DNA from: Bacillota bacterium
GTDB lineage: Bacteria > Bacillota > Clostridia > Saccharofermentanales > DTU023
DNA: 64,000 nt
Reading direction: 5' to 3'
Assembly: GCA_023622515.1 (NCBI GenBank)
Contig: JAMNZB010000007.1
Span: 1 to 64,000, forward strand
Positions 13,368 to 48,381 of the stretch are shown one piece after another. How positions within the stretch are numbered: the first letter of the stretch is position 1; each line of letters starts with the position of its first letter. A program made the position numbers and the translations under genes. Under the pieces are notes generated by a model. It was not told the origin of the DNA and made no database searches. It saw nothing but the letters and a program-made list of their open reading frames with translations.

Positions 13368-13444
13368 GGCGCAGTAGTTCAGTTGGTTAGAATGCCAGCC
13401 TGTCACGCTGGAGGTCGAGGGTTCGAGCCCCTTCTGCGTCGCCA
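13368..13444 (+). tRNA. tRNA-Asp (GTC), CCA encoded
   Basis: Identical by eye over 77 nt to the copy at 1381-1457. Confidence 0.96.
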
Positions 13445-43435: not shown

Positions 43436-43599
43436 ATCTCTACCTCCCGGATTTTTCTTAGATTCAGTTTACCATAAAAGACCCTTCAGAGTGAGTTTTT
43501 TATTAAAAGAGCTATGCTATAATTAATAGGACTTTGCTGTCTAAACAGCTTAATACATGAAAAAGTCAATTTATGCAGATATGCACAATGGAGGTCAAT

Positions 43600-43962
43600 A
43601 TGCTAGTTTGGGATTTTCCCTATTACAATCAGGACGATATAGAGGGTGGTCATGACCATTTAAATGAAGAAGAGTCGCTTGTTGAAATTGAGGATGTAGA
43701 GACGGGTGAAAAGTTTTCTTTTATCATCGCCGATGATTTTGAATTCAATGGTGAAAGCTTTGCGGTATTGGTAGAAAACTCGGAAGAGGCTGATGTCTTC
43801 TTTATCGTCCGTGTTGTTGAAGACGAAGATGACGAAGTCTTCTTTGAAACCTTAGAAGAAGATGAAGCTGACGCTATCTACGATGCTTATGATGAACTCC
43901 TCGAAAATTTCTTTGAGGATGAAGAAGACGATGATGGCGACTATGAAGAAGACGAAGAATAA
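43600..43962 (+). CDS. DUF1292-type acidic protein
   Basis: VEIEDVETGEKFSFIIADDFEFNGESFAVLV...FVRVV-like pattern; very acidic C-terminus; downstream of ireB/ruvX locus. Confidence 0.75.
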   Translation: MLVWDFPYYNQDDIEGGHDHLNEEESLVEIEDVETGEKFSFIIADDFEFNGESFAVLVENSEEADVFFIVRVVEDEDDEVFFETLEEDEADAIYDAYDELLENFFEDEEDDDGDYEEDEE

Positions 43963-43964
43963 TC

Positions 43965-44288
43965 ATGGCGAAAAGAAAGGCAAAGAGAAAAGAGCCTAGA
44001 GCAATAAAAAAGGAAGATAATGTCCTGGCTGTTATTACCGATGAGGCGAACGGCCAGGAGTATTATGTTTCCATTATTGATGTCTTTGAGTTTCGTAATC
44101 AAGAGTATAGTGTGATGTACCACTATCGCCCCGATTCGGCCAAGGGCCATGAACCGGAAATTGTTTTGATGCGCAGTTATAGTGGAGAAGATGGGAACCG
44201 TTACTTTAGCTCTATCCGTAATCCGAAGGAGGTAGAGCTGGTTTTTGAACTCTTTTATCAGCGCTATCAAGAGGCTCAGCGCAGGTAG
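43965..44288 (+). CDS. DUF1292-like protein, second copy
   Basis: VLAVITDEANGQEYYVSIIDVFEFRNQEYSVMYHY similar layout to preceding protein. Confidence 0.65.
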   Translation: MAKRKAKRKEPRAIKKEDNVLAVITDEANGQEYYVSIIDVFEFRNQEYSVMYHYRPDSAKGHEPEIVLMRSYSGEDGNRYFSSIRNPKEVELVFELFYQRYQEAQRR

Positions 44289-44294
44289 ATTGCT

Positions 44295-45137
44295 ATGAAG
44301 AAAAAGAAGACAATAAGCGTCTATCCCTTGCTTTTTATTTTTTTACACCTTATTGGGCTTATCGTAGCTAGCTTGCTTGCGGCTTTTCTTTTGGCCGGCG
44401 AGACGAAAACACAAGAGGCCGTGCATAATGCCCTGATGAGTTCAGATGCAAATAATCTGGGGTCCATCCTCGGAACACTCATTTTAGTCCCTCTTTTTTA
44501 CTTGTTTCTGCGTTGGCGGAAGAGGGAGAATCCTCAAATTTTTTTAAATAATAAACCTACGAAAAGGCAGTTTTTTACCTCAATGTTTTGGGTTTTTGCC
44601 GCCCAGGGCTTGGCCCTCTGCTGGCTCCTCTTCTTGGAATATGCCCAAGATTATTCAGAATATATTCGCTTACGTCTTGAACAATATAATCTTTTAATTA
44701 GTGGGATTGTCTCGGAGAATCAAAACATCTTGCTCATGGTGCTGGCCACTTCCGTTTTTGTTCCTTTGCTTGAGGAACTCCTATACCGGGGGATTGTTTT
44801 AGGCGAACTTAGAAGAACTTTTTCCGACCGTGTTTCCTTGATTATTCAAGCCGCTATCTTCGGCCTGGTTCACGGAAATTTTGTTCAGTCGGTATACGCC
44901 TTTGTTTTGGCTCTGGTAATCGGCTATATTTACCTTAAATGGGAGAGTTTCATACTCTGCTTCTCGGTTCATGCTGTTTTTAATTTTTTAGGTGGTGCCC
45001 TGCCTCAGATTTTGCCGGAGCAGTCGATTCTGCTTCAGTTCATCAATGCTTTGCAATTCATCTCACTTGTTTTAGTCGGGTTATATCTTCTCTTTTCCCT
45101 GGCAAAGGATAAAGGTGGGCAAGATTATGTTCCGTAG
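44295..45137 (+). CDS. CPBP family intramembrane glutamic endopeptidase
   Basis: PLLEELLYRGIVLGELRR, FGLVHGNFVQSVYAF, HAVFNFLGG motifs; multiple TMs. Confidence 0.92.
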   Translation: MKKKKTISVYPLLFIFLHLIGLIVASLLAAFLLAGETKTQEAVHNALMSSDANNLGSILGTLILVPLFYLFLRWRKRENPQIFLNNKPTKRQFFTSMFWVFAAQGLALCWLLFLEYAQDYSEYIRLRLEQYNLLISGIVSENQNILLMVLATSVFVPLLEELLYRGIVLGELRRTFSDRVSLIIQAAIFGLVHGNFVQSVYAFVLALVIGYIYLKWESFILCFSVHAVFNFLGGALPQILPEQSILLQFINALQFISLVLVGLYLLFSLAKDKGGQDYVP

Positions 45138-48100
45138 GATTTTTGGTGTACGCTTTAAAAAGACTTCGCTTCTTGTCCTTGCCTTGTGCCTTATTTTTAT
45201 ATCCATCCCGGTTTTGTTTATCCTTCGTGCAGCACAAAAACAATTAGCCGAGGAAGATGTTTTAGATATTTCATTTGGTGCAAGCAATGAGCGGCAAGTC
45301 GTATCAGGTACAGGCATAAACCTGACTTCCCTGGGGAGCGAAAACTTGCTCCTTAACGGGAGCTTTGAGCCACTTGTCTATCGAAAAGAATATACGGTCT
45401 ATTCCGGAGATAATAAAACCCTGCTCCTTGCTGAAAATGATGAGCGAAACGGGAAAAACAAACAGATCCCTTTAGATGATTTTTTTACAGGGGCAAAAGT
45501 TGAAATATCAACCAGCCAGCAAGGGGAGAGGAGGGTAAAAAAGGTTAGCGAAATTGAGCAAATTGTTCCGGAGATTATTTCCGGCCTCCACCCCTACTCC
45601 TTCCCCCCGGATAGCCCGAAGGCATATAAATGGACGGCTGTCTTTGAACAGCAAAGAGAGTCGGGATCGCAAATATTTCTTGGTGCCAGTGATGGTTATA
45701 TCCTAAGTAATGCTACAGGCTCAATGTTTTTCTTGCGCCTGCCCTCGAGAAAAGATGTAAAAGACATTATGTCCTGGGGGGATGATATTCTTGTTTTAGA
45801 TGAACAAGGAGGGCTTTTTCTCTATTCCCCGGATACAGCAATGTTTTTACCTCTGTTTACAGAGTGGGGGGAGAAAATTACAAACATAGCCAGTAGCCAA
45901 TCTGCCGCTGACAGCAATAAACTTTTCCTCCTGACAGATAAGGGAGACCTGTATCTTACGAGAGACTTGGAGACAAGAGAGCGTATTCGACCCTCGCGGA
46001 CCACAAAAGGGGAGGCTGTATACAATAGACAAGGGCAAATTTTCTTGCTGTCAAAAGAGAATGCTCTTTTTCAAATTACAGACGAAACAAACTGGAAAGA
46101 GATCTTTGTTTTCCCGGAAAATTTTCATCTTCGAGATTTAGACTTATGGCAAAATACAGCCCTCTTTCTAAGTAAAAGAGGAGAACTAATTTTTTACGAT
46201 TTGACGAGTAAAATTGCTTCTCCACTTCCTCTTTCCTCTGAGAAAGCAGAAGCTGATAACCCTGATAAGGCTGAAAAGAGGCATAAGAGTGAACCGGCAG
46301 ATTATGTTTCATCCCCAACTTCACCCCTGGCTCGGAATAAAGTAAAGACCCTGCCGGAAGGGATTCTCAGTTTAGAAGAAGCAGCAAGTATTCCCTTTAA
46401 AGACATCTCCTTGGTTTCTGACCGGCATCTTTTTGTTATTAATGAGCCGGGCCAGCTTCTCGAAAGTAAAGATGCCGGAAAGACCTGGCTTGTCCATGGA
46501 GGTGAGAACTTTTTTGAGAAACTTTCCTTTGTCTATATCACGGAAGATAAGAGCTTGCTCTTGGGCAATGAAAATGGCCTCTTAGCTAGTGCCCTTTTAG
46601 GGGCTAGCCTTACCCTGTCTTCCCCCTTAGAGGAAGATATTTTTGAAGCCGGAGATACTGTTCGCTTGGAAAAGCATTCTCCCTTGCCCTGGCAGAGGAT
46701 GAGAGATTTGGATGAAAATATGGCCTGGCAGGGTCACCGCAATCTCGCGGGCGAGGCTATTGTAGGTGACTGGTATGTGGCGCAGAACACCCTTGCTTTT
46801 CCACGTATAGAAAGTCCGGGTTCCCCCTCCGGTAAAGCCGCTTTGTTTTTGCAAAAAAATCTTTATTCAGGCAGGGATGCTCCCCAGCTCTTGCGTGGAA
46901 TCTACGGGAATACTCTTCTGGAAAATACTCTGCCGGCTGCAAAGGAGAGTTTGCGTCTAGTCCATAAATTAAGTGATGAATCGCTCAATTTAATGCAAGG
47001 AAATTCCGCTTTCGAATTAATCTTCTGGGCAAAAGCCGATTGCGATGAAGCCCAAGTAGATCTTGCACTGACCGCCCCTAATATGCCCAATGACCCGGTA
47101 AAACGCTATCTCAGTAAAGAGTGGAAAGAATATTCTGTTGTTTTTATCATCCCTTGGTCAGTAGCGGAACGCAGTGACCTACGGGTTATATTTGATTTTC
47201 TGGATTGCGAAGAAGCTTCTGTTGACCGTGTTCGCTTAAGAAAAATCGAAGAGGAAAGCCCCTATAAGGTTGATTTGGAGAAGATTCAAACCCTTTCTCC
47301 TTTAGTTATTCGGCTGGCCTATTTACAAATCGGTGAAAGTCTCTTGCCGAGTGAGTTTTATTTTGAAGAGGAAAGCCAATATATTTTTGGTGATGATGGC
47401 AGCCTGCACAATATATATTCCGGGACCCTGAATGATACCGTAAAACTATTACAACAGGCAGGAGCCCAGCCCTGGTTGTGTATCGGCTCCAGTGTAAGAG
47501 AGGCAGAACTGCGGCATATCATGCAATATCTTTTTGGTTCCAGGCAATCTGAATATGGCTTGCTTCGCGTACAAGGCGGTACCTTGTCACGCTGGAATGA
47601 GCTTTTTGATACGATTTATATTGAGTTTTCGGAACTGGATACAGCTTATTTCAATTCCGATAGTGAGCGCCAGCTTTTTGTTGACTGGGCTATCAGTATA
47701 ATATCCTCTACACCGGAATATGCTCAGGTACGCAATCAAGTTGTTTTTGTTGACGGTATGCAGTATCAAGATGGAGTTATGCTTTCTTCCGCAGATACGC
47801 ATGCCAGTGATTTTGGCCTGCCTGTCAAAGTAAGTTCAAAGCGTAACTTAGATTATGCTATGAGCCAAAAATATGATAATTTCTTGCGTGACCCGATGCG
47901 TGCCCTTTCCTTGCGGCCTGAAATTTTCCGCAGCTTCCCGGCCGGCGAGAATAACTTGCGCTTGGCCGACTATATGGCACAAATGCTTCACGGATTGGGA
48001 AAAGAGGTGAGCTTTACCTTGCTGAATGTGGGCCGGTCAAGTCATCCTTTTTCTTTTGACTTATTAACCGGCATCTTTTATTCCTTGGATAATATTTCCG

Positions 48101-48381
48101 GCATGGCCCCTTATACAATACGTGTTGAAGGCACTGCGGAGACAGAGGAGTGCCCGGTCGTTGCCTTCGCTTATGGCAGTCGAGAAGAAAAGCGTCTTTT
48201 TATCCTTAATCTAGGTGATGAGGTAAGCCTTGTACGGATTTATGAGGCCGTGAATGATAAAACCCGCCTGCGCGAGTATGATGCGGCAGGCATCCTTTTA
48301 ACCGAACGTAAGATGACCAGAAGAGATGGGACTTTAGCTCTTTTGCCGGGAGCGATGATGGTTATAGAGTATAATGAATGA
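45127..48381 (+). CDS. Large membrane-anchored protein: N-terminal TM, beta-propeller/YCF48-like region, carbohydrate-binding-like region, C-terminal TIM-barrel-like domain
   Basis: TM LLVLALCLIFISIPVLFIL; repeats such as DKGDLYLTRDLETRE and NEPGQLLESKDAGKTWLVHGG; WxKEYSVVFIIP jelly-roll-like region; WNELFDTIYIEFSELDTAYFNSD and NQVVFVDGMQYQDG. Confidence 0.55.
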   Translation: MFRRIFGVRFKKTSLLVLALCLIFISIPVLFILRAAQKQLAEEDVLDISFGASNERQVVSGTGINLTSLGSENLLLNGSFEPLVYRKEYTVYSGDNKTLLLAENDERNGKNKQIPLDDFFTGAKVEISTSQQGERRVKKVSEIEQIVPEIISGLHPYSFPPDSPKAYKWTAVFEQQRESGSQIFLGASDGYILSNATGSMFFLRLPSRKDVKDIMSWGDDILVLDEQGGLFLYSPDTAMFLPLFTEWGEKITNIASSQSAADSNKLFLLTDKGDLYLTRDLETRERIRPSRTTKGEAVYNRQGQIFLLSKENALFQITDETNWKEIFVFPENFHLRDLDLWQNTALFLSKRGELIFYDLTSKIASPLPLSSEKAEADNPDKAEKRHKSEPADYVSSPTSPLARNKVKTLPEGILSLEEAASIPFKDISLVSDRHLFVINEPGQLLESKDAGKTWLVHGGENFFEKLSFVYITEDKSLLLGNENGLLASALLGASLTLSSPLEEDIFEAGDTVRLEKHSPLPWQRMRDLDENMAWQGHRNLAGEAIVGDWYVAQNTLAFPRIESPGSPSGKAALFLQKNLYSGRDAPQLLRGIYGNTLLENTLPAAKESLRLVHKLSDESLNLMQGNSAFELIFWAKADCDEAQVDLALTAPNMPNDPVKRYLSKEWKEYSVVFIIPWSVAERSDLRVIFDFLDCEEASVDRVRLRKIEEESPYKVDLEKIQTLSPLVIRLAYLQIGESLLPSEFYFEEESQYIFGDDGSLHNIYSGTLNDTVKLLQQAGAQPWLCIGSSVREAELRHIMQYLFGSRQSEYGLLRVQGGTLSRWNELFDTIYIEFSELDTAYFNSDSERQLFVDWAISIISSTPEYAQVRNQVVFVDGMQYQDGVMLSSADTHASDFGLPVKVSSKRNLDYAMSQKYDNFLRDPMRALSLRPEIFRSFPAGENNLRLADYMAQMLHGLGKEVSFTLLNVGRSSHPFSFDLLTGIFYSLDNISGMAPYTIRVEGTAETEECPVVAFAYGSREEKRLFILNLGDEVSLVRIYEAVNDKTRLREYDAAGILLTERKMTRRDGTLALLPGAMMVIEYNE

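Follow-up and report, generated by a model that had tools for sequence, protein, structure and literature searches.

Some glycoside hydrolases of family GH51 carry an internal carbohydrate-binding module of family CBM4/9; clostridial proteins of this type are known, and the plant ASD1 type is a further example. CBM4/9 domains start with an N-x-SFE strand. The β-propeller of Ycf48/HCF136, a photosystem II assembly factor, is represented by PDB entries 2xbg, 5ojp and 8am5. In S. aureus, the CAAX-protease homologue SpdC scaffolds the membrane glucosaminidase SagB (PMC10581084).

Here we describe a gene encoding a 1084-aa protein in which a Ycf48-like propeller most likely lies within a CBM4/9 domain of a GH51-like protein, an arrangement of nested domains that escapes recognition in family databases. 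The gene lies in the window, by which we mean the whole stretch of 64,000 nucleotides analysed (contig JAMNZB010000007.1, assembly GCA_023622515.1); the features are listed in Table 1. The same window holds two tRNA-Asp (gtc) genes of equal Rfam score, 12 kb apart (1381-1457 and 13368-13444).

Table 1. Positions in the window of the nested protein gene, its parts and its upstream neighbours.
Feature	Position	Strand	Basis
Two DUF1292 genes, upstream, in conserved block	43573..44288	+	Pfam, synteny
CPBP (Rce1-like) membrane protease gene, conserved upstream partner	44295..45137	+	Pfam PF02517, E 6e-20
Whole gene, 1084-aa membrane-anchored nested GH51-like protein	45127..48381	+	ORF, order-wide homologues, structure model
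N-terminal transmembrane anchor, aa 12-40	45160..45246	+	Helix 12-40 in model; hydrophobic peak aa 15-33
Barrel strand 1 (probable), aa 61-66, GTGINL	45307..45324	+	Invariant glycines, seven-strand model, weak register match
CBM4/9 first strand, aa 72-82, ENLLLNGSFEP	45340..45372	+	Split-CBM joining test
Insert carried by CBM: β-rich bracket (aa 83-160, 486-518) round propeller	45373..46752	+	Model secondary structure, split-CBM test
Ycf48-like β-propeller, aa 169-481	45631..46569	+	Profile match to PDB Ycf48, Foldseek
Remainder of CBM4/9 jelly roll, aa 543-706	46753..47244	+	Pfam CBM_4_9, hhalign
Barrel strands 2-8, GH51-like, aa 727-968	47305..48030	+	hhalign against GH51 (probability 95-98), Foldseek
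E833, aligned to GH51 acid/base Glu	47623..47625	+	hhalign register; 77/77
D876, strand 5 end, not a GH51 feature	47752..47754	+	Invariant
D890 and H892, pocket candidates beside strand 6	47794..47802	+	76/77 each
C-terminal β-sandwich, aa 990-1083	48094..48375	+	Model; GH51 matches run end to end

The open reading frame starts with ATG, contains no internal stops and is intact; the initial annotation, which gave its product as about 1085 aa, was confirmed in its statement that it overlaps the CPBP gene by 11 bp. A AAAGGTGGG-like sequence 7 bases 5′ of the ATG, within the CPBP gene, is a plausible ribosome-binding site. The N-terminal anchor proposed in the same annotation was borne out by a helix in the AlphaFold model with positive charges at its cytoplasmic side and by a terminal hydrophobic segment with a positive-inside charge pattern in 72 of 77 homologues.

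By sequence, the window protein gave only sub-threshold matches to Pfam and a fragmentary match to the PDB. The AlphaFold model of the whole protein, built from a 20-member alignment (the A1 set), had a mean pLDDT of 78.5 and a pTM of 0.73, and in a Foldseek search of the PDB with this model the GH51 arabinofuranosidases and Ycf48 ranked top. The YCF48/sortilin-like repeats suggested earlier correspond to a Ycf48-like propeller in both fold and repeat profile: it matched PDB Ycf48 in a profile search with E 2.8e-9 and Ycf48 structures in Foldseek with E 4.6e-11 (TMt 0.67-0.71), although its Pfam score itself was under the cut-off. The jelly-roll-like segment, placed earlier at about aa 590-710, is probably the remainder of a CBM4/9 domain; Pfam CBM_4_9 matched 4 of the 20 members (best E 1e-5), and hhalign aligned the jelly roll, in the same linear order, with the CBM that clostridial GH51 proteins carry internally. 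The initial annotation had thus named the right three domains, all of which are supported by profiles and model, but they are nested rather than arranged in a row. Its statement that the architecture is not a standard one also held, with no end-to-end match to any family, and the papers retrieved on GH51 and propellers mention no fusion of the two in their titles and abstracts.

The Pfam CBM_4_9 model that was matched here starts at the N-x-SFE strand, and in this protein that strand occurs more than 450 residues ahead of the remaining CBM. The relationship of the two pieces was evaluated by joining aa 66-83 to aa 543-712 in ten homologues and scoring the product against CBM_4_9, with the second piece alone as the control for L042 and L067, and with a shuffled first piece as the control for L103, L105 and L068. 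In 5 of the 10 homologues the joined sequence scored higher and its match reached back to model position 1-2. Relative to the second piece alone, the score rose from 13.6 to 25.6 bits for L067 and from 18.6 to 22.2 bits for L042, and the joined sequences scored 30.9, 30.5 and 21.3 bits for L105, L068 and L103, respectively, against 15.5, 23.3 and 15.9 bits when the first piece was shuffled. The gain was small for L040 (15.9 to 16.8 bits), there was no CBM_4_9 match either way for L038, L055 and L057, and the window protein gained 0.9 bits with the start of the CBM model not reached. Against the PF02018 cut-off of 25.9 bits, the rejoined L105 and L068 lie above and the window protein below, as does L067 with its 25.6 bits. 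The most likely reading of these scores for the family is that the CBM is split after its first strand and carries the propeller and its β-rich bracket as an insert; for the window protein this reading would follow by homology.

The barrel was modelled separately (aa 706-1084) with a mean pLDDT of 85.1 and a pTM of 0.84, and the first 44 Foldseek matches of this model were all to GH51, with E values as low as 1.3e-12 and a query-based TM-score of about 0.65. Sequence profiles agree: a profile search of the PDB matched GH51 with E 0.006, and hhalign against clostridial GH51 proteins gave probabilities of 94-98. Once the propeller had been taken out of the profile, L154, a GH51 protein with an internal CBM, matched more strongly, at a probability of 98 and E 1.2e-13 over 210 columns, the alignment passing co-linearly through the CBM and then the barrel. 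Outside the order, the protein closest in architecture among the genomes searched is likewise clostridial, a GH51 member whose CBM is internal (L153:1406-3547). The predicted model thus shows the (β/α)8 barrel and C-terminal β-sandwich of GH51, with strand 1 supplied by assignment. Because the barrel-only model has seven strands and GTGINL falls in the same hhalign register as GH51 strand 1 (FGTNLEH), a weak match that is not significant (E about 0.1), we infer that GTGINL is probably strand 1; its G61 and G63 are invariant in the A1 set. On this assignment the CBM4/9 domain would lie between barrel strands 1 and 2, as it does in L153 and L154.

Homologues of about 980-1180 aa were found in 49 of 59 related genomes searched. 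Of the order's 188 genomes, 171 have one (97 of the 106 of good quality), mostly as one copy per genome. The gene is therefore order-core and usually single-copy, without a named function. The order name is our reading of genome groups; NCBI has an order Saccharofermentanales, and Mageeibacillus stands there under Eubacteriales/Oscillospiraceae. Saccharofermentans, Mageeibacillus and unclassified Clostridiales are among the named records with homologues, and the titles of many point to rumen, faeces or digester-type samples; the isolate Ruminococcaceae KHP2 (locus L102) also has a homologue. A single-protein pattern search of named genomes returned none of these homologues, and a query with the alignment recovered them. 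No full-length relatives were found in 391 genomes of the class, where only propeller, CBM or GH51 pieces matched, and 300 genomes of the phylum gave no matches at E 1e-20 except in the window's own genome. Since homologues at 18-45% identity retain the whole architecture, its conservation is far beyond chance.

The neighbourhood is conserved as well. A block of genes for RNase R, MTTase, IreB and RuvX, two DUF1292 genes, the CPBP gene and the large gene recurs nearly throughout, and the next gene 3′ of the large gene in the window is AlaX. Conservation of the CPBP linkage, which the initial annotation had singled out as a check, was seen at 70 of 75 distinct resolvable loci (79 loci, of which 4 were cut off upstream), where the CPBP gene is directly upstream of the large gene; the two overlap by exactly 4 bp in 26 of the 70 when the first possible start codon is taken. 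In 4 of the 75 loci an asnA gene (aspartate-ammonia ligase) is inserted between them (for example, L039:7018-8040, L055 and L057), and in 1 of the 75 the CPBP gene is absent, the large gene following straight after DUF1292 (L109:6210-6279). The CPBP protease motifs EExxxR, FxxxH and HxxxN are complete (E160, E161, R165, F189, H193, H226 and N230 in 75/75). A DUF2156/LPG_synthase_C-like gene stands between DUF1292 and CPBP in several lineages (L033:6437-7357, L216:4661-5635 and L050:4826-5914), hinting at an envelope theme. MltG is encoded on another contig and is therefore unlinked.

In genomes without the large gene, the CPBP gene still follows DUF1292 in all 8 readable loci that have that part of the block, with a DUF2156 gene between them in 2 of the 8. 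The link is therefore one-sided, and the protease does not serve the 1084-aa protein solely. In a ninth such genome (L207:3944-6850), DUF1292 and CPBP are also gone and a uvrA-like gene follows ruvX. The absence of the large gene from one family (f1, genera g5 and g7) looks like loss, because in g7 the CPBP gene directly precedes AlaX, the follower of the large gene in the window.

One alternative is that CPBP and the large gene are adjacent only through inherited synteny, in a block of housekeeping genes that rearranges slowly, and that the two proteins do not cooperate. The block is mostly one of housekeeping genes and is largely conserved with or without the large gene, and this alternative is a serious one, if short of even odds. 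The frequent overlap of a translational type speaks against it, and so does the distribution of intervening genes, which are commoner in the interval from DUF1292 to CPBP than in that from CPBP to the large gene.

The initial annotation had also described the C-terminal domain as glycosidase-like. The fold part of that description stands, but two of the catalytic features of GH51 are absent. The glutamate aligned to the GH51 acid/base residue at the end of strand 4, E833, is retained in 77 of 77 sequences, and R729 (the Arg of RxPGG), Y801, R814 and G818 are further GH51 hallmark positions retained by alignment. However, position 832, where clan GH-A has an Asn just ahead of the acid/base Glu, holds I, L, F or V in the 77 sequences, and no acid is conserved at the strand-7 nucleophile position, where 935 is S, R, G or N and 936 is mostly S (a register taken from the model strands, as the profile alignment there is of low confidence). 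New invariants relative to GH51 among the 77 distinct sequences are D845, D876, M878 and Y880, the invariance of the last three being inflated by the pattern containing them with which the contig-derived sequences were gathered; D876, M878 and Y880 are also invariant in the A1 set, which was gathered without a motif pattern. The best pocket candidates, E833 in WNELFDTIYIE and D876 in NQVVFVDGMQY, lie in the two motifs that had been picked out beforehand. With the acid/base Glu kept, the nucleophile and Asn lost and new invariants present, the protein is GH51-derived and not a standard GH51 enzyme.

The same losses would suit a pseudoenzyme with a dead barrel and a lectin-like role, in which the protein, as scaffold or sensor, attaches to a surface glycan and uses its propeller to bind a partner; the propeller and CBM are indeed binding domains. 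We consider this somewhat unlikely, since the invariance of E833, D845, D876, M878 and Y880, and the near invariance of D890 and H892, at 18-45% identity exceeds the needs of a simple scaffold.

We favour, with a probability of roughly 0.55, the reading that the protein is a putative membrane-tethered envelope-glycan protein, GH51-derived and with a remodelled active site. Order-wide retention together with the anchor suggests an envelope role. Its ancestor would have been one of the GH51 glycoside hydrolases with an internal CBM4/9, a domain into which the propeller was inserted; the active site would have been rebuilt, with the E833 position kept, the strand-7 nucleophile and the Asn ahead of the acid/base lost, and D876, M878, Y880 and, nearly, D890/H892 gained. 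The protein, presumably extracytoplasmic, would most likely bind and process a glycan of the envelope on the outer side of the membrane: the CBM and barrel may hold this glycan while the propeller docks a partner, E833 with D876 may carry out the chemistry, and the CPBP protein may position the 1084-aa protein, as SpdC does SagB, or cleave its anchor. Against this reading stand the possible inheritance of the CPBP adjacency, the lost nucleophile position, which would fit a non-catalytic lectin, the weak strand-1 match, and the loci at which CPBP and the large gene are not neighbours: CPBP without the large gene in 8 genomes, L109 without adjacent CPBP, and the four with asnA between.

A stronger version of the envelope reading, a new glycoside-active family whose barrel works without the strand-7 nucleophile, using E833 and D876 on strands 4 and 5 in order-core envelope glycan remodelling with CPBP, is doubtful at present. 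It is likewise improbable that the protein is a putative substrate of the adjacent CPBP protease, its anchor cut and its ectodomain released: the conserved adjacency, the frequent 4-bp overlap, the intact protease motifs and the single N-terminal anchor are in favour, but 8 genomes retain CPBP without the large gene and asnA intervenes at some loci. A working GH51 α-L-arabinofuranosidase on plant polysaccharide, with ornamental extra domains, is very improbable, for although the fold and acid/base position agree with GH51, the nucleophile and Asn are not kept, the gene is single-copy and order-core in a housekeeping block and not in an accessory sugar-utilisation locus, Pfam Alpha-L-AF_C does not detect the protein, and some relatives have separate ordinary GH51 genes. 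In the window's own genome no ordinary GH51 gene was detected. Galactofuranose was considered as a substrate and rejected, because UDP-galactopyranose mutase (PF03275), which the window's genome lacks, does not track the large gene.

Genes of glycosidase fold are usually accessory, whereas here about nine in ten good-quality genomes of the order keep one, at a constant position within a block of housekeeping genes. Should the protein work on a glycan of the envelope, it would represent an unknown step in how Saccharofermentanales-type Clostridia build their cell surface, as well as a natural relocation of the active site in a GH51-like barrel.

Among known systems, the F510_1955 family glycosylhydrolases (NCBIfam NF045728) match 10 of the 20 members (best E 1.9e-6), a match that does not run end to end and whose region is taken to be the repeat propeller. 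The propeller shares its fold and DxGxxW-type repeats with Ycf48/HCF136, but here it is only a nested domain of a larger protein in a non-photosynthetic anaerobe, and a role in photosystem II assembly is not expected. SagB is a glucosaminidase of a family different from that of the GH51-like protein. The likeness to SagB-SpdC (PMC10581084) is that a membrane-associated, putatively glycan-acting protein goes together with a membrane protein of CPBP fold, a pairing known here from the genes; by contrast, the CPBP protein here keeps all protease motifs, and the two genes do not strictly co-occur, CPBP being alone in 8 genomes, so that SpdC-SagB may serve as a precedent for CPBP paired with a glycan-acting protein and no more. 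The closest likeness is to the GH51 proteins with an internal CBM4/9, such as clostridial L153 and L154, with which the 1084-aa protein shares the barrel, the C-terminal sandwich and a probable CBM4/9 between barrel strands, whereas it differs from GH51 in lacking the strand-7 nucleophile Glu and the Asn before the acid/base, and in having a propeller most likely inside its CBM, a transmembrane anchor and order-core status.
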